Source: Candidatus Auribacterota bacterium
GTDB taxonomy: Bacteria > Auribacterota > JAFGBW01
Assembly (NCBI GenBank): GCA_016932965.1
Contig: JAFGBW010000202.1
Location: 1 to 6,910, forward strand
Direction of reading: 5' to 3'
Length of the DNA stretch: 6,910 nucleotides
Shown here in pieces: positions 1 to 6,910 of this stretch. The notes under the pieces were generated by a model. It was given only the letters and a program-made list of their open reading frames with translations. It was not told where the DNA came from and made no database searches. Position 1 is the stretch's first letter, and each line of letters begins with the position of its first letter. A program made the position numbers and the translations under genes.

Positions 1-825
1 CTTTTTGTATCACGCTCTGAAATCACCCATTATTCCGGAAAACACGCGCATTTTTTCTGCCATCCGGCAGGATGCCTGGTTTCTCTTCCAATCCACCCTC
101 ATCAGCCCATACGAATGCTGACCGGTATCTTGAAAACACGCGGCTTTTCGATCCGGAAAAAACAGACTTCGCCTTTCCAGCTTAAAACCAGCGGTTCGGT
201 GCCTGAAGAAACCCTGATGGATCTGGTTAAAATGTTGTATGTCCGCTATCATCAATGGCTCTGTTTACATGGCGCCCTGTTGAAGATTCGAAATTCAGGG
301 GTTCTTTTGACAGGACCCAGCGGCGTGGGCAAGACCACTGCCGCGCTGGCTTTAATGCGCGGCGGGTTTAACTTGCTGAGTGATGAATTGACCCTTTTGA
401 AACCCATCCCTAAAAAGGGGGTCACTGCACATGGATTACTCACTCCTCCGCGGCTGGATTTAAAAGAAGGAGACCTCAATCATTTGGAATTAACCTTGTC
501 CGGATCTTCCTCAAAACCAAAAGGATTTGTTCCTCTCCCGTCCTCTGTGATTGTATCGGCTATGCATACAAAGGTTGTACCTCGACTGATTCTATTTTTG
601 GAACGCACCGGCTGTCCCAAAAAAAATCATCAAATGATCCCGTGCCAGCCGCAGGACGCTTTTGTGAGGTTGATGGATCAGGCTCTGGATTTTTCAGAAT
701 TTTTTGACCAGAAAAACCGCCTGAACACCTTGGGCAGGCTAGTAGATGGATGCCGTTTATTTCGTCTGGTTCTGGGGTCTGATCTGAAGTCTCTTCCTCA
801 AACGGTATTATCAGGTATCTTATGA
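1..825 (+). CDS. HPr kinase-like P-loop protein kinase (5' partial)
   Basis: A kinase of the HprK/P family fold, expected to phosphorylate a serine or threonine side chain in the cytoplasm; the substrate is unknown. The frame is open from base 1, so the true start is probably upstream; 274 residues are visible. The first possible ATG inside is at 115. Just before the P-loop lies LHGALL (265-282), matching the HG-V-L-V strand of HprK, followed by the Walker A loop GPSGVGKTT (313-339). Then comes LLSDEL (373-390), which sits where HprK has its Asp-Asp pair and here reads Asp-Glu. Later, PRLILFLERTG resembles the C-terminal strand of HprK-like kinases. It lacks the regulatory-domain length of true HprK, so a role in PTS regulation is unlikely. 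It overlaps the next gene by 4 bases (ATGA). HprK-like kinases of this shortened type occur in RiPP clusters and phosphorylate peptides; that role here is inferred. The fold is fairly certain, the substrate is not. Confidence 0.8.
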   Translation, partial: LFVSRSEITHYSGKHAHFFCHPAGCLVSLPIHPHQPIRMLTGILKTRGFSIRKKQTSPFQLKTSGSVPEETLMDLVKMLYVRYHQWLCLHGALLKIRNSGVLLTGPSGVGKTTAALALMRGGFNLLSDELTLLKPIPKKGVTAHGLLTPPRLDLKEGDLNHLELTLSGSSSKPKGFVPLPSSVIVSAMHTKVVPRLILFLERTGCPKKNHQMIPCQPQDAFVRLMDQALDFSEFFDQKNRLNTLGRLVDGCRLFRLVLGSDLKSLPQTVLSGIL

Positions 826-2267
826 TTTCCCTCCGCACAGTCCTTTCTTTCTTGGGTGAAAAAAATCCAAAAATCCGCCGGATAGGCATGCAATATATCG
901 CGGATGCAGCACCCGGAGAAGCGGAAGAAGCTTTGGTATTTGCCGCAGGGAACCCTTCTTCTGCGGTCAGCCGCCGGGCTCTGGAAATACTGAAATTCCG
1001 CCAACCCTGGCTGCGTTTGCAGCCCTTTGACCCAAGACCTGTCCCGAAATCAGTCTGCAAAAACGGATGGGGAAAATCCTGGCTCGCTTTAAGCCATGGA
1101 ATTCAAAAATGGGTCTCCTGCCGCCAGACGCATTTAACATCAGGTATCCTCCGGAGATGGAGAACGCTTCCAGGTGCTGTTCCTGACTTGATGGATGCCC
1201 TGAACCAGCAGGGACAGCCTGAAAAAGCCCGATTAATCCAGGCAAAGCTTCCTTTGAATGAAAAACAGGTCCTTTTATGTCCGACTTACTCCTGTCCTTT
1301 GGATTGTTCCTACTGTTATGCAAAAAATTGGGAAGAAGGTTTTCCCCGGGATCTTTCGCTTCCCGGTCTTGATCTTTTTTTTAAATGGGCTTCCCGTCAG
1401 AAGGTGAAAAGGCTGATCCTGGGAGGAGGAGAGCCGACGGCATATGGGAATTTTTCAGCACTTCTCCAAAAGGCCCGTTCCCATGACATGAATGTCCAGC
1501 TCACCAGCAACCTTTTGTATCCGCCAAAAGTGCGTCAGCTGATCACCTCCGATTTGGTTAAAGAACTCATTGCCCATTATCATCAGGGCCTTAAGACCCG
1601 GCCCGGCCTGATAAAAATATTCAAAAAGAATCTGGCCTGTGCCAGGGAAAAGGGAATCCCGGTTTTTTTACGATACACTCTCACCCCGAAAAGCAACCGG
1701 CAGGAATGGGAGCCTATCCTGAAAATGGCAAAAAAGGAATGCATGGCAGATCTTCACTATGCGTTTTCATTCACAAATTCATGGGGGAACAATGAAAGTT
1801 TTCACTACCAAAATTCTGATATCCGAAGAACCTTTGAAGAACAATGGACAGCTTTTGCCGATGATGCGGATTCAATGGGAATGAAACTACATCTGTGCAA
1901 ACCGGTCCCATTGTGCATGCTTTCGGAACCCCGCTTGAAGACCATGCTGCTCAAGGGTTTCATCCGGAATTCCTGTACGGCATCTTTGCGTCACTTTTCT
2001 CAGAATCTCACCGTTAATCCCGATCTTTCCACGTTCCCCTGCAACGCCATCTATGAGAAAGGACCGGAACTCGACCATTTCAAGGATTTCAGGCAGGCGG
2101 GTGATTATTATGAACCTCTTCTTAAAAAATTGTTGTTTCATCCTTTGTGGAATCAGTGCGAGGATTGCCTGTTTCATTACCGTGGATTCTGTCAGGGAGT
2201 GTGCCTGGCCGAGCATTATTTCAGCATGAAAACACCGAAAGGAAAGTCACATGTTTTCCCCGGCTGA
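822..2267 (+). CDS. Radical SAM/SPASM protein with HEAT-like N-terminal extension
   Basis: A 481-residue radical SAM enzyme that would cleave S-adenosylmethionine with a [4Fe-4S] cluster, probably to modify a peptide or protein. Residues 3-61 form two amphipathic helical repeats resembling HEAT repeats, with pattern around NPKIRR and SSAVSRRALEIL. Residues 62-146 are a linker of unknown function. The cluster motif is C158-x3-C162-x2-C165 (1293-1316), preceded by another Cys at 153. The SAM-binding GGGEP is at 201-205. The C-terminal region is SPASM-like: C385-x21-C407, then C446-x2-C449-x7-C457-x3-C461, so it probably holds one or two auxiliary Fe-S clusters. Extra Cys at 359 and 365 could also be ligands. 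The start at 822 overlaps the kinase stop by 4 bases with no strong ribosome binding site, typical of coupled translation. A peptide maturase is the best guess; the reaction cannot be predicted. Confidence 0.9.
   Translation: MISLRTVLSFLGEKNPKIRRIGMQYIADAAPGEAEEALVFAAGNPSSAVSRRALEILKFRQPWLRLQPFDPRPVPKSVCKNGWGKSWLALSHGIQKWVSCRQTHLTSGILRRWRTLPGAVPDLMDALNQQGQPEKARLIQAKLPLNEKQVLLCPTYSCPLDCSYCYAKNWEEGFPRDLSLPGLDLFFKWASRQKVKRLILGGGEPTAYGNFSALLQKARSHDMNVQLTSNLLYPPKVRQLITSDLVKELIAHYHQGLKTRPGLIKIFKKNLACAREKGIPVFLRYTLTPKSNRQEWEPILKMAKKECMADLHYAFSFTNSWGNNESFHYQNSDIRRTFEEQWTAFADDADSMGMKLHLCKPVPLCMLSEPRLKTMLLKGFIRNSCTASLRHFSQNLTVNPDLSTFPCNAIYEKGPELDHFKDFRQAGDYYEPLLKKLLFHPLWNQCEDCLFHYRGFCQGVCLAEHYFSMKTPKGKSHVFPG
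2238..2246 (+). promoter_or_regulatory. Ribosome binding site for the GT9 gene
   Basis: AAAGGAAAG lies inside the end of the upstream radical SAM gene, with GG eight bases before the ATG at 2251. It supports that start even though the two genes overlap by 17 bases and the GT9 fold proper begins about 13 residues later. Confidence 0.6.
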
Positions 2268-3189
2268 AGTGTTTTCCCTTAAGAAAAAATTACGGGTGGT
2301 TGTCACAGGAGGACTGGGAGACAATCTTCTGGCAACCCCGTATTTCCGTTATTTCCGTTTGCAGGGACGGTATAAACAAATTTGCGCTGTATTTCCCAGG
2401 CAGGCGATGGAAATTTTCGACCGGAATCCTTTTATCGATGAACATATTCCCTGCGGAAAAAAGGACATTTTTCTCTGGGCCCTGCCGGAAAAAGATGTCG
2501 ACGTTTTCTCACCTTATGTGGATGTCCGCCGTAAAACACCGTCGAATTTCACATCCCGTGTGGAATTGTCCGTATCCCGTTCTTTCAACGACAATAGCGA
2601 CAAACAATATTTTTACACCATTTTATCGCGCCATCATGGCTTTCCGGTTCAGGATATGAAACCGGAGATATTTACAGACCCATCCGATGAAGCATGGGCG
2701 GACGATTATTTGAAACCATGGAAAGGCCAGCCCTTGCTTTTTTTTCATCCATTCAGTCCCTTGCGTGAGAAAAATCTTCCGGTATCGCTGTCCCGGAAAT
2801 TAATCAGCCGTCTGAAGAAGTATTTTGTCATTTTTCATCTGCCCAGGCCGGATTATCCGTTGCCCGGAGTCCAGGCGCTGAAATTCCCGGTTTCCCCCAG
2901 AAAATCCGCCGCCCTGTTCAAACACATGTCCTGTGTGGTGTCGGTCAATTCTTTTCCCGCACATCTCGCTCATGCTGTTCAGATTCCTGCGGTTGTTTTG
3001 TTCGGGCCCACCAATCCTTTAGTTTATGCCCATCCCGGGCAGATCGCGGTTCAATCCCCTGTCTGCAAACCCTGCGCCGGCACTCCGAAGATCCGTCGAT
3101 GCCGGTCTTTTTCATGCATGAAAACGCTGTCTGTTGAAATGATTGCGGAATCCGTCTGCAAGGCGGCTTCAAAAGGAATGCGCGCATGA
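2251..3189 (+). CDS. Glycosyltransferase family 9 (heptosyltransferase-like)
   Basis: A 312-residue GT9 protein, related to the ADP-heptose:LPS heptosyltransferases, which transfer a sugar from a nucleotide donor at the cytoplasmic face of the inner membrane. The N-terminal nucleotide-fold motif GGLGDNLLATP is at 20-30 and keeps Asp24, the position of the proposed catalytic base in WaaC. Residues 165-177 (FHPFSP...) fit the strand opening the donor-binding domain. The donor-binding signature at 230-254 ends HLA..VQIPAVVLFGPT. It is followed by CKPC (272-275) and by Cys284 and Cys289, a Cys pattern common in GT9 members. The usual Asp-Thr/Ser-Gly before the conserved His is replaced by N233-S234-F235. 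The length is slightly below the usual 330-350. The start has a ribosome binding site and overlaps the previous gene by 17 bases. The acceptor could be a lipid-linked glycan, or, given the neighbours, a peptide; this is inference. Confidence 0.9.
   Translation: MFSPAEVFSLKKKLRVVVTGGLGDNLLATPYFRYFRLQGRYKQICAVFPRQAMEIFDRNPFIDEHIPCGKKDIFLWALPEKDVDVFSPYVDVRRKTPSNFTSRVELSVSRSFNDNSDKQYFYTILSRHHGFPVQDMKPEIFTDPSDEAWADDYLKPWKGQPLLFFHPFSPLREKNLPVSLSRKLISRLKKYFVIFHLPRPDYPLPGVQALKFPVSPRKSAALFKHMSCVVSVNSFPAHLAHAVQIPAVVLFGPTNPLVYAHPGQIAVQSPVCKPCAGTPKIRRCRSFSCMKTLSVEMIAESVCKAASKGMRA
3173..3177 (+). promoter_or_regulatory. Ribosome binding site for second radical SAM gene
   Basis: AAGGA lies in the tail of the GT9 gene, eight bases before the ATG at 3186. 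It supports 3186 as the start; a nearer ATG at 3178 is out of frame. Confidence 0.6.
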
Positions 3190-4325
3190 CCATCCGGTTA
3201 CACCCCCTCACGCAAGTCCGGACCTGGCAGGTCCTGTTTGTGCAGGACTGCAATCTCCGGTGCTCGTATTGTTCTTCCGGTTTTGGAACCTATGGAATTC
3301 AAAAAGGACTGATGGAGCCGCGGGCATGGAAAGATTTTGTGTCTCTGGCCGTGCATCATGCCCCTGAAGAAGCACCGGTCCGTTTTGAATTCGGAGGCGG
3401 AGAAACCTTCTTGCATTATGATGAATTTCTGCAGGCGATTGAATACCTCCGGGACAAGTTTAATGTCCGCCATGTCCCGGTTGAGATTCATGTGACCACC
3501 AATGGAACGCTTCTCAACCCTGCCCGGCTTCGGACTCTGGCAGGTATGGGGGTTTCTTTGGCTTTCAGTATTGACGGGCCTCCGGATGTGCATGATGCCA
3601 AACGCCGCACTGTCGGGGGAATGGATTCTCATGCACTCGCCATGCAGAATTGGCGCCGGTACTCAAAACTTTCCCGGAAGTCGCCGGAGAAACCCGCCTG
3701 CAAGGTGCACAGCGTGATCACCGATGCTTCCAGATTGCGCCATGTGTTGAACTTCTGGATTCAGGAAGGGCTCACGGTGGTTGAAACGGCCGTGCAATGG
3801 CCCCGGAATGCAACGCGCGCTTCCCTTACGCAATTTAAAAGAAGACAACAACAGTATCTGGAAGATCTCCGGCAATGGGCCTTTCAGTTTGCCAAAGAGC
3901 ACTGGGCGGAAGAATTTTTGTCCCGGTATCAGGGCTCACTGGATTTATTTTCCCTGTGGAAAAAAATGTTTTTTCAGGAAATTTCCAAGCCCTGCGGAGC
4001 AGGAGAACAAATCATGGCAGTGGACAGGAAAGGGGGCCTTTACCCGTGTGAACTGCTGATGATGTCCGGGCAGTTAAAGATCGGAGATGCCGCCGAAGGC
4101 ATTTTCCCGGAATCCTACAGATCATTTTTGAAAGAAAAAAACAAATGCCGCGTTTCCTGTAAAACATGCGTAGCCAGAAAATGTTGTCCCGGCAGCTGTA
4201 TGGCAGGCGTTCCTTATCAGACCCTGCAAAAAAATTTTTCTTCCGGCTGCTGGTTTGCCAAAGAACTGTATAAGATTGCTTTCCGCAGTTATAAAATTTT
4301 ATTACAATCCAAACATGAAAATTAA
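3186..4325 (+). CDS. Radical SAM/SPASM peptide maturase, anSME-like
   Basis: A 379-residue radical SAM enzyme with a complete SPASM domain, the architecture of enzymes that modify peptide or protein side chains (for example anaerobic sulfatase maturases and RiPP maturases). It begins almost directly with the barrel: the cluster motif C22-NLR-C26-SY-C29 is at 3249-3272, FGGGET at 69-74 takes the place of the usual GGEP, TTNGTLL is at 104-110 and SIDGP at 128-132, the last typical of anSME-like proteins. The SPASM cysteines are textbook: C270-x17-C288 with D280/G283-G284 between them, then C325-x2-C328-x5-C334-x3-C338, then C355. Two further Cys (321, 333) are present. This predicts two auxiliary [4Fe-4S] clusters. 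No sulfatase is seen nearby, so a sulfatase role is not supported. The start overlaps the GT9 stop by 4 bases (ATGA) and has a good ribosome binding site. The substrate is unknown. Confidence 0.93.
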   Translation: MTIRLHPLTQVRTWQVLFVQDCNLRCSYCSSGFGTYGIQKGLMEPRAWKDFVSLAVHHAPEEAPVRFEFGGGETFLHYDEFLQAIEYLRDKFNVRHVPVEIHVTTNGTLLNPARLRTLAGMGVSLAFSIDGPPDVHDAKRRTVGGMDSHALAMQNWRRYSKLSRKSPEKPACKVHSVITDASRLRHVLNFWIQEGLTVVETAVQWPRNATRASLTQFKRRQQQYLEDLRQWAFQFAKEHWAEEFLSRYQGSLDLFSLWKKMFFQEISKPCGAGEQIMAVDRKGGLYPCELLMMSGQLKIGDAAEGIFPESYRSFLKEKNKCRVSCKTCVARKCCPGSCMAGVPYQTLQKNFSSGCWFAKELYKIAFRSYKILLQSKHEN

Positions 4326-5637
4326 ACATTTTTTTCTTCTGCTTCCGGTCTTGTTTATGGCAGGGTGTTTTTCCACGCTTCCGAAGGTGGAAAATTCCAT
4401 TTCGCAATCCATTGCCTCCATCTGGCAGGAACAGACCGCGTCTTTAACCCCTTTATCCGCTCCCTCGTCTTTATCCGGATGCTTTATGCAGATTTTGTCC
4501 CGCGATCCGGAATGGATTGCGCTGGAGACGGAACTGAAAAAAAATCAGATCGACAATCGTCAGGCCGAAACCTATACCTGGCCGCGATGGTCGCTGGAAT
4601 TTCATGCTGAAACCCCTCTGCAGAAAAATAAAACCGACACTTCCGGGGGAGGAATTTATTTGCGTTACGATTTCTTAAAAGCCCTTTTTTCTTCAGATGC
4701 CAAATCCATGGAATCCTTGAAGCGGGACCGTCTGCTCCAGAGACAAAAAATGTTCCGGAAAAAAATATTCTCCCATCTTCAGAAGCTTTTGTCCGAACTT
4801 GAATGCGCCCGATGGGAGAAACGTTTTGCCTGGCAGTCCGTTCAAACGGCACGCGAGGCTGTTGAGTATATTGAAAAACAGTCAGGAAAACCGGGCCTGG
4901 CCTATTGGCAGGGCATGTTGCAGGAATCCCTCCGGAATGACCGAATGATCCGGTACCGCCTCATGACCCTTGAGGAATCATTCCGGGCGTTTACCGGCTT
5001 TAAACCTGCCCGGGAACATAAAAAACTTTTTTCGGGTTTTCAGGCAGAAATCCCTGCTTCTGACCCTGCAGACGAGGTGCAGCTGGCATGGAACCAGCGC
5101 CCGGAAGTGAAAATAAGTGCATCTGACTGGATTCTGGCAGAACTTAATATAACCCAAATGCGGCGAAAAAGGCTTCCGGCCCCTTATGCAAGCCTGGGAC
5201 TTGGAAATATCCTCCTGTCCAATCAGGACGAACACGCTCCAGCGGTCCCTTCTTTCGGGATTTCCATGCCCATTTGGGATATGGGAGATATCCAGCGTCA
5301 GATCCAAAAGGCGGTTCTGGAAAGAGACACCGTGAAAAACAAACTGGAATCATTCGCCCGCAATCTCGTGACAGAAATAAAAACTGCCCGGTTTCAGCTA
5401 GACTGGAGCCGGGAGCAGTTGTCAGAAGACAAAGAGATCCTGAAAAAACTCCGGCATGAAGCCAAGACCCTGCAGGATCTCTCCGCCATTCAAAGGGCTG
5501 ATTTTCTGGATCTGCAAAATAAACGGAACCAATTCTTTCAGGCGGAAATCCGTTTTTTCCAGACCCTTCTGGAATACAAAAAAGCACTGATACATCTGCA
5601 AAATGTACGTGGAGACCCTCTGCCGGAAAATTTGTAA
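4315..5637 (+). CDS. TolC-family outer-membrane efflux lipoprotein
   Basis: A 440-residue outer-membrane factor of the OEP/TolC family, which forms the trimeric barrel and periplasmic helical tunnel of a type I secretion or efflux system. A short basic N-terminus and a hydrophobic stretch lead to the lipobox M15-A-G-C18 (4357-4368), predicting cleavage before Cys18 and lipid anchoring; Phe at +2 argues for the outer membrane. Most of the protein is long, charged helix. The second family repeat is clear: QRPEVKISASDWILAEL (261-277), then KRLPAPYASLGLG (285-297), a strand ending SMPIWDMGDIQRQI (317-330), and a long helix to about 430. The first repeat (about 60-240) is more diverged. The in-frame ATG at 4255 would give a longer form, but the signal peptide starts at 4315. 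It overlaps the upstream gene by 11 bases and lacks a clear ribosome binding site, so coupled translation is likely. No periplasmic adaptor or inner-membrane pump lies within the window. Confidence 0.88.
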   Translation: MKIKHFFLLLPVLFMAGCFSTLPKVENSISQSIASIWQEQTASLTPLSAPSSLSGCFMQILSRDPEWIALETELKKNQIDNRQAETYTWPRWSLEFHAETPLQKNKTDTSGGGIYLRYDFLKALFSSDAKSMESLKRDRLLQRQKMFRKKIFSHLQKLLSELECARWEKRFAWQSVQTAREAVEYIEKQSGKPGLAYWQGMLQESLRNDRMIRYRLMTLEESFRAFTGFKPAREHKKLFSGFQAEIPASDPADEVQLAWNQRPEVKISASDWILAELNITQMRRKRLPAPYASLGLGNILLSNQDEHAPAVPSFGISMPIWDMGDIQRQIQKAVLERDTVKNKLESFARNLVTEIKTARFQLDWSREQLSEDKEILKKLRHEAKTLQDLSAIQRADFLDLQNKRNQFFQAEIRFFQTLLEYKKALIHLQNVRGDPLPENL

Positions 5638-5638
5638 C

Positions 5639-6910
5639 ATGTCTTTTTCCTGGAATATGTCACATCTTCCGTTTCTTTCAGATAAAGACAGGACCCTGCT
5701 TTTAATAACCATGCGGAGCTGGTTTTGCAAAGAGCCCATCGATGTTTCCGGCCTTAACAATCCGGATTTGTTCTGGGAATATACGGTCCGGCATGGTTTG
5801 TCCGGCATCCTCGGTTCCATGGTTCTGAACAATTTGCTGAATCATCCCGGAATCAACTCCCGTGCAGTTGACTGGTACCGGAGTCACCTTCTGCAGCACG
5901 AACAAAGCCTTCATGTCTGCCGGAGAGTGGAACAAGAAGCCCAACTGGCCGGTATCCCAATCGTGTTTGTCAAAGGACCTGCTATTGCGCTTCAGGCCTA
6001 TACACAGGAACCTGGTGTCCGGTCCTATTCGGATATTGACGTTTTAGTCCCGTCAAGGGAAGAGGCCCTCCGTCTGATCCGGACACTCACGGGCAAGGAA
6101 GCAGAAGTCCCCGAAGAAATCAGGTGGGACCGGCTGATGCATCCGGGCCGTCTGCATATCATGCTCCGGGACTGGGAGGTGGAATTCGCCCATCCCATGG
6201 ACCCCTCTCCGGACCCCATGTTTGATTTTATCCGGATGCATCAAAACCAACTCTTTAAGATTCCCGGCCCGGAAGTCCCCTTCACCGTTCCCGATGTGTC
6301 CCTCCATATGATTTTTTTAATCCAGCACATGGTCCGGCATCTGTGCAATCGTTTGATCTGGTATATGGATCTGGCAGTCCTGCACCTGGCCCATGAAAAA
6401 GATCTCGACTGGGATTTTATTTCTCATGAACTGGAAAAACTGGAGCTCAAAAACATGGCAAGCCTGATCAGCCTTTTCTGCATTCAGCAGGTGAATCCGG
6501 CCTTCCCGCGGATTCCATTCGGAAAAAAAGGCTGGAATACGGCTTTTCAAAAAATCGTCGTTTCACCGGAGCAGATCCACTCCACACTCTCCCTGCATCA
6601 TGAATCACGGGTACTGCATTATTATACCCGGATACTGTCAACCCTGCGGTATGTGCTCATCGCCGATCCCCATCCCCAAACCTCTTTATTCAGGCGGCTT
6701 CCCTGTCACTGGCTCTCCGTCCGGCTGGTGCATTCCCAGGGCTGGAAATCGTCATTCTGGATTCCTTTTTTTCAGGCATTGTTTGTGGGGATCTATATTT
6801 GTCTGTTCCCAATCGTATGGCTCTTATGTTATAGTTTCGTGGGTATTTTTCTGGCTGAAAAATCATTTTTAAAATCCAGGAGAAATGATGCGCAGATTCT
6901 GCTTTCCGGC
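5639..6910 (+). CDS. NTP_transf_5-type nucleotidyltransferase (3' partial)
   Basis: The frame is open from the ATG at 5639 to the window edge: 424 codons with no stop. The core motif is at about 105-137: GIPIVFVKGPAIAL (K112-G113), Y121, R128 and then SDIDVLV with Asp132 and Asp134. This K-G...Y...R...D-x-D arrangement is that of the nucleotidyltransferase-fold family PF14907, and the two Asp are the expected metal ligands. A second family hallmark follows: MIFLIQHMVRHL (224-235) and LIWYMDLAVL (239-248). Residues 373-407 are strongly hydrophobic and could be a membrane anchor or hairpin. The start is one base after the TolC gene's stop; GGA at 5625-5627 is a weak ribosome binding site, and an in-frame ATG at 5657 is a less likely alternative. 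Members occur in RiPP loci beside HprK-like kinases; in the pseudomycoidin cluster one is linked to sugar attachment on a peptide phosphate (from memory). The reaction here is unknown. Confidence 0.85.
   Translation, partial: MSFSWNMSHLPFLSDKDRTLLLITMRSWFCKEPIDVSGLNNPDLFWEYTVRHGLSGILGSMVLNNLLNHPGINSRAVDWYRSHLLQHEQSLHVCRRVEQEAQLAGIPIVFVKGPAIALQAYTQEPGVRSYSDIDVLVPSREEALRLIRTLTGKEAEVPEEIRWDRLMHPGRLHIMLRDWEVEFAHPMDPSPDPMFDFIRMHQNQLFKIPGPEVPFTVPDVSLHMIFLIQHMVRHLCNRLIWYMDLAVLHLAHEKDLDWDFISHELEKLELKNMASLISLFCIQQVNPAFPRIPFGKKGWNTAFQKIVVSPEQIHSTLSLHHESRVLHYYTRILSTLRYVLIADPHPQTSLFRRLPCHWLSVRLVHSQGWKSSFWIPFFQALFVGIYICLFPIVWLLCYSFVGIFLAEKSFLKSRRNDAQILLSG
6755..6859 (+). other. Hydrophobic C-terminal segment of the nucleotidyltransferase
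   Basis: Residues 373-407 of the last gene are almost all hydrophobic or aromatic (for example ALFVGIYICLFPIVWLLCY at 380-398) and are followed by a basic stretch (K409, K412-S-R-R). This is long enough for one membrane span, or two short ones around Pro391. It suggests the enzyme is held at the inner membrane, near the exporter. The prediction is by eye. Confidence 0.6.
6878..6882 (+). promoter_or_regulatory. Strong ribosome binding site at right edge
   Basis: AGGAG stands five bases before the ATG at 6888 and two before the ATG at 6885. It is the best Shine-Dalgarno sequence in the window and lies inside the still-open nucleotidyltransferase frame, as expected if another gene of the operon starts here with an overlap. 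Confidence 0.5.
6888..6910 (+). CDS. Possible start of a seventh gene (3' partial)
   Basis: An ATG at 6888 (or the adjacent one at 6885) follows AGGAG at ideal spacing and opens a frame different from the nucleotidyltransferase. Only about seven codons are visible (M-R-R-F-C-F-P), too few to identify a product; the basic start followed by hydrophobic residues would suit a signal peptide, but this is speculation. The overlap matches the style of every other junction in this operon. Confidence 0.4.

Follow-up and report, generated by a model that had tools for sequence, protein, structure and literature searches.

Genes and layout of the contig

The window, meaning the whole stretch of DNA that was analysed (6,910 bases), is the entire contig C282 of a 3.14 Mb MAG (300 contigs, 92.6% complete, 2.0% contamination), and both of its flanks lie outside the assembly. 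Open reading frames placed six genes on the window, all on the plus strand and each touching or overlapping its neighbour, in the order HprK-like kinase, rSAM1, GT9, rSAM2, TolC-like lipoprotein (OEP) and NTP_transf_5 protein (NTP5). The Pfam matches of all six exceeded the curated cut-offs, and the co-directional, tightly packed gene order given in a preliminary description of this DNA was thereby confirmed. Contamination was considered from composition and rejected, as the GC content of the window is above the contig average, yet near the top of the range that the genes of this genome span.

The HprK-like kinase gene (1..825; Hpr_kinase_C, 1.7e-9, 37.9 bits) loses its 5′ end to the contig edge, leaving 274 visible amino acids. 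It overlaps by 4 nt the gene for rSAM1, a protein of 481 amino acids (822..2267; Radical_SAM, 5.5e-13, 49.9 bits), which in turn overlaps by 17 nt the gene for GT9, a heptosyltransferase-type protein of 312 amino acids (2251..3189; Glyco_transf_9, 2.5e-8, 34 bits). A 4-nt overlap joins GT9 to rSAM2, a radical SAM/SPASM protein of 379 amino acids (3186..4325; Radical_SAM, 4.4e-13), and an 11-nt overlap joins rSAM2 to OEP, a TolC-family outer-membrane efflux lipoprotein of 440 amino acids (4315..5637; OEP, 1.5e-16, 61.2 bits). The last gene encodes NTP5, a nucleotidyltransferase-fold protein (5603..6910; PF14907, 4.8e-19, 69.4 bits against a cut-off of 31.2), and is cut at its 3′ end by the edge of the contig. 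Its reading frame could begin at position 5603, with a 35-nt overlap with OEP, or at an ATG at 5639, one base past the OEP stop codon, which is most plausibly the start. Inspection of all 6,910 bases revealed no convincing precursor peptide within the window, as the preliminary description had also observed, and the overlapping or touching gene junctions leave no room for one. No RNA family matched in the window.

The six encoded proteins

The alignment of the kinase with TIGR04352 (HPr-rel-A system kinase) indicated that about 10 residues are lost at the truncated end. The Walker A motif GPSGVGKTT is retained, together with an upstream LHG and a downstream LLSDE. The score against this model was 51.1 bits (cut-off 200), and that against TIGR00679 (HPr(Ser) kinase/phosphatase) was 41.2 bits (cut-off 240). 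A housekeeping role for the first gene was ruled out by the latter score, by the presence of the genome's true HprK as a separate gene on contig C259 (TIGR00679, 363.8 bits against the same cut-off), and by a phylogenetic tree of 42 rows, in which the cluster kinases, including that of the window, were split from housekeeping HprK with support of 100/100. One tree row labelled as housekeeping, L028, duplicates the L204 gene. The window kinase is the sole non-housekeeping HprK-like match in its own genome, and its nearest neighbour in the tree (90/87, with a long-branch warning) was the kinase of L204, a locus in which PqqD, HprK, a SipW/archaeal-type signal peptidase (SpI) and NTP5 genes are found together.

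The rSAM1 protein comprises a helical, HEAT-like N-terminal region of about 145 amino acids, a radical SAM core with a CxxxCxxC motif and a C-terminal SPASM-like Cys pattern, which scored 19.2 bits against the SPASM domain model (cut-off 27). The HEAT-like character was read from the sequence of the first 60 residues, with helix pairs predicted at low confidence over residues 4-60. The predicted structure of rSAM1 had a mean pLDDT of 52.6 and was excluded from the fold search. No close relatives of rSAM1 were found among 59 genomes or in GTDB r220.

The rSAM2 protein carries a complete SPASM Cys set and matched SPASM maturases along its length. It reached 138.5 bits against NF047865 (PapB; cut-off 340), and its closest solved relative was 5wgg (E 3.2e-27), the SCIFF maturase CteB, which acts on a peptide. 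The predicted function of rSAM2 is peptide maturation in the manner of PapB/SCIFF (CteB) enzymes. The domain architecture and Cys pattern are those of the SCIFF/PapB-type ranthipeptide maturases; unlike these enzymes, however, rSAM2 begins directly at the SAM core without their N-terminal region, and no SCIFF or PapA-type precursor was seen. Against the quinohemoprotein model rSAM2 scored 111 bits, and against that for sulfatase maturases 74 bits, both far below the cut-offs; a solved sulfatase maturase was also among the structure-database matches. Relatives of rSAM2 in family f9 of the phylum adjoin HprK and NTP5 genes. A scan of GTDB r220 with the rSAM2 alignment returned 80 loci, mostly from Firmicutes, and HprK or NTP5 was present in none of them.

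For NTP5, residue G125 and a DxD motif (D144, D146) were invariant in an alignment of 17 relatives. The predicted structure (pLDDT 69) resembled nucleotidyltransferases of the pol-beta type, such as ANT(2'')-Ia, and more weakly FKRP, while a sequence search against the PDB gave matches to repeat proteins only, which were judged spurious. NTP5 was above the cut-off in 13 of 44 genomes of the phylum, and NTP5 genes were also found with no kinase nearby (e.g. L216). At one locus (L208, 6823-8631) an NTP_transf_5 protein carries a fused C-terminal methyltransferase domain and is followed by an HprK-like gene. Enzymes of the GT9 family are normally LPS-type transferases, and the best relative of the window GT9 sits in a glycosyltransferase array (L066). 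The signal peptide of OEP ends in FMAGC, with the lipobox read from the sequence. A counterpart of GT9 or OEP was absent from every related cluster examined.

Related loci and a second contig of the same genome

The preliminary description had made its case from gene company, and conservation of the neighborhood was found in part. No other instance of the exact six-gene set turned up in the genomes searched or the loci read, but the core of HprK-like, radical SAM and NTP5 genes recurs both within and outside the phylum. Failure of the six genes to co-occur elsewhere, which the preliminary description would have taken as a refutation, holds formally for the full set and not for the core. Of the 17 NTP5 loci read in the phylum besides the window, seven include a divergent HprK-like gene (L067, L087, L204, L207, L208, L209 and L210), and five of these seven (L067, L087, L207, L209 and L210) have a radical SAM gene as well. 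At one or two HprK-like genes per genome of 2-4 Mb, the number of such co-locations expected by chance is estimated at well under one. Most of the loci that bear the core also encode a PqqD-type protein, an SpI and a short peptide with a YxxP motif. In L210, for example, the order is PqqD, radical SAM, a 59-amino-acid peptide, HprK, signal peptidase (TIGR02228, 56.4 bits, above the cut-off), ABC transporter and NTP5; an ABC transporter is also present in L087. In L088, the gap between HprK and the radical SAM gene held repetitive, non-coding-looking sequence and no precursor.

The radical SAM family of L207, L209 and L210 had matches in 34 of 240 genomes (E < 1e-35). In 11 of the 20 stretches read around these matches, all of them outside the phylum (L261-L267, L270, L272, L273 and L279), genes for PqqD, radical SAM, HprK-like and SpI proteins were present together. 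With L207, L209 and L210 the full sets come to 14 loci, eight of which also have NTP5. The window genome contains no member of this family at 1e-35, and neither rSAM1 nor rSAM2 belongs closely to it. In support of the preliminary description, HprK-like kinase, NTP_transf_5 and radical SAM genes do travel together, and in relatives they are accompanied by a PqqD/RRE protein and a short leader-bearing peptide; the argument from gene company therefore points to a system that modifies peptides. Within the phylum, family f9 also includes loci (L070, L071 and L074) in which four to six radical SAM genes are arrayed within 18-20 kb.

The peptides were gathered solely by a [YW]xxP motif and by position, which gave 18 short open reading frames. 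A Cys is present at the aligned leader/core boundary in all 18. The final residue is Ser or Thr in 13 of the 18 (12 Ser and one Thr), against a background of 10% Ser or Thr, and 4% Ser, at the ends of 169 long open reading frames from the same loci, although the peptides are mutually related and the figures overstate their independence. When the count was confined to peptides of HprK-containing loci outside family f9, 11 of 12 ended in Ser or Thr. The named exceptions are four f9 peptides (Pro), that of L280 (Asp) and a peptide from the window genome itself (His). The peptide cores are highly variable; the last residue is not.

This last peptide is encoded on contig C277 (3,481 bp), which carries a PqqD gene, a YxxP peptide and a radical SAM gene in a set that runs off the contig, with a coupled open reading frame cut by the edge at the 3′ end. 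The nearest solved structure to the C277 PqqD (1779-2036) was 5v1u, the lasso RRE TbiB1, and its score against TIGR04353 (HPr-rel-A PqqD) was 17.1 bits (cut-off 35). The peptide, MKKTEKKAEKKEYTKPKIEKHKSIVKISGSGCSSYSSRSDGSLYYH, is preceded by a clean AAAGGAGG site. The C277 radical SAM protein aligns with rSAM1 in the SAM core as well as in the SPASM region.

There is perhaps an even chance that C277 lies directly upstream of C282 and supplies the missing part of the operon. The strand and open ends of the two contigs are compatible with this order, the operon part of C277 was the closest of 38 chunks of the same genome to the window in tetranucleotide profile, and HprK is placed after PqqD, radical SAM and peptide genes in L210 and L264. 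It could also be that C277 is an independent PqqD-peptide-radical SAM RiPP locus and that the substrate of the window lies elsewhere, to which we give a little under an even chance and which is itself compatible with the best explanation given below. No end overlap is shared by the two contigs, and the C277 peptide ends in His, not in the Ser that is typical of peptides linked to a kinase, so that the window kinase would need an internal Ser; against a separation of the two loci stand the strand, open ends, composition and gene order just described, and the position of the window as the holder of the genome's only non-housekeeping HprK-like match. Two further PqqD-like genes were observed in the same genome. 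One is a PqqD-radical SAM/SPASM fusion (L222, contig C232, 4133-5913) directly 3′ of a thioredoxin-like gene, and the other (L220, contig C62, 7982-10355) lies between HAD phosphatase-like and Ser/Thr protein kinase genes, an unusual context for a protein that resembles an RRE.

Comparison with known systems and interpretation

PadeK, an HPr-kinase-like enzyme, phosphorylates the paeninodin precursor at its C-terminal Ser, and PsmN, annotated as a nucleotidyltransferase, adds hexoses to the phospho-Ser of pseudomycoidin (PMC9266682). In the linear polyphosphorylated peptides (LPPs), Ser 3 of the core is the residue phosphorylated by the kinase LppK, and the leader, presented by an RRE, is cut by a SipW-like peptidase; LPPs and paeninodins are stated to be restricted to Bacillota, and radical SAM enzymes are unmentioned (PMC13381572). 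A text search of the literature, with most subscription journals outside its reach, gave no cluster joining an HprK/HPr kinase and a radical SAM enzyme. The preliminary description had held that the gene combination matches no characterized class. This stands for GT9 and the TolC-like exit, which are without counterpart in the clusters examined, but not for a kinase, NTP transferase and RRE, which together form the known core both of LPPs and of lasso peptides of the paeninodin type (PMC9266682, PMC13381572).

The window shares the HprK-like kinase and NTP transferase with the LPP clusters (PMC13381572), and its relatives also share a discrete RRE, an SpI, YxxP leaders and in some cases an ABC exporter. 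The C277 leader, YTKPKIEKHKSI, can be set against the LPP consensus YxxPxVLxHQxI; within the longer motif YxxPxVLxHQxIxFETxxS, the peptide fits YxxPx(I)xxHxxI and not FET. Two radical SAM genes, GT9 and an outer-membrane exit set the window apart from the LPP clusters, however, and it was not assigned to the LPP class because an SpI, an RRE and an MsbA-like exporter are absent from C282, both ends of which are open. The only archaeal-type signal peptidase match in the window genome was below threshold and in an unrelated neighborhood. Paeninodin and pseudomycoidin likewise combine a kinase acting on a C-terminal Ser with an NTP transferase, PsmN, and the YxxP leader and PqqD-type RRE of the lasso systems (PMC9266682) are found in the relatives and on C277, whereas no lasso cyclase or leader peptidase was seen with the cluster, which has radical SAM genes instead. 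The single Transglut_core3 gene of the genome, on contig C208, was set aside as a lasso clue, as no PqqD, radical SAM, HprK or NTP5 profile match lies near it. The SynChlorMet cassette (NCBIfam ScmC, ScmD, ScmE and ScmF) also has an HprK-like protein, two radical SAM/SPASM proteins and a PqqD-like protein, the last being found in the relatives of the window. In this case, however, the scores were far below the cut-offs (ScmC, 16.2 against 125 bits; ScmE with rSAM1, 22.2 against 400 bits), and the named Scm models include no NTP5, GT9 or OEP.

Our favored interpretation of these data, which we consider probable, is that an uncultured Gram-negative bacterium encodes here a RiPP-type operon, of which the window covers the downstream part. 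A PqqD-type RRE would hold a short precursor that bears a YxxP leader, both being expected beyond C282; just such a pair is encoded on C277 of the same genome. The two radical SAM proteins would remodel the core, probably at conserved Cys or Tyr residues, with thioether or C-C bonds as the presumed chemistry; given the conserved Cys, a thioether or other radical crosslink seems the likeliest product. The HprK-like kinase may then phosphorylate a Ser, by analogy with PadeK, PsmK and LppK, and NTP5, with or without GT9, could cap the phosphate or add sugars, as PsmN does in pseudomycoidin. The TolC-like lipoprotein would provide the outer-membrane exit, partnered by an inner-membrane pump encoded off C282. 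The best description of the window is a divergent variant of the kinase-nucleotidyltransferase theme of LPP and paeninodin, to which radical SAM enzymes, a glycosyltransferase and an outer-membrane exit are added. The most economical reading is that GT9 and the outer-membrane lipoprotein are a Gram-negative elaboration, and that NTP5, GT9 or both cap or glycosylate a phospho-Ser.

A different assignment would place the operon in a pathway for envelope polysaccharide or lipid, where it would tailor a surface glycan. GT9 and NTP5 would then build or cap a glycan phosphate, the substrate of the kinase would be a sugar or a regulator, and polymer would be exported through OEP. The usual LPS-type role of GT9 enzymes and the array around the closest GT9 relative would fit, as would the NTP5 genes that have no kinase nearby and the weak likeness of the NTP5 model to FKRP, a sugar-phosphate transferase. 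We nevertheless consider it unlikely, since two SPASM-type radical SAM enzymes per operon point to a peptide or protein substrate and the relatives pair the same kinase type, radical SAM and NTP5 with an RRE and a YxxP peptide. If the substrate were instead a larger protein, secreted or periplasmic and of the quinohemoprotein or sulfatase kind, this would account for the matches of rSAM2 to those maturases. The scores are far under the cut-offs, however, the best solved match is 5wgg, and a kinase together with NTP5 is not known from quinohemoprotein or sulfatase maturation systems; such a substrate is judged quite improbable. It may be added on the side of a glycan substrate that capsule loci also harbor the LPP clusters (PMC13381572).

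Returning to the RiPP interpretation, the recurring loci with RRE, radical SAM, HprK, SpI and NTP5 genes and visible peptides appear to represent a little-described, widespread peptide class. Whether the window is an outlying member is put at somewhat less than an even prospect. The class so envisaged would be taxonomically broad and undescribed, with a YxxP leader, a conserved Cys where the core begins and, as a rule, Ser as the last residue, served by a PqqD-type RRE, a radical SAM/SPASM enzyme, an HprK-like kinase, a SipW-like peptidase and NTP_transf_5; its products would be radical-crosslinked, phosphorylated on the C-terminal Ser and possibly glycosylated. If this is correct, radical SAM modification would join kinase/nucleotidyltransferase tailoring, a pairing not described in the literature searched, and kinase-based peptides would extend beyond Bacillota. 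The role of NTP_transf_5 would be directly testable, as many related clusters carry an evident Ser-ending peptide substrate, and the C-terminal Ser would offer a recognizable signature for genome mining.

Some of the related clusters showed further variation. A SipW-like peptidase is fused to a GNAT acetyltransferase and adjoins the HprK-like gene in both L209 (5031-6014) and L207 (4801-6132), which suggests acetylation in these two clusters. In L273 (4219-5895), a single open frame matches the signal peptidase and NTP5 profiles and is a probable fusion. Finally, a gingipain-type C25 peptidase is encoded in L067 (1227-4220), between NTP5 and the genes for SpI, HprK, the YxxP peptide and a radical SAM protein.
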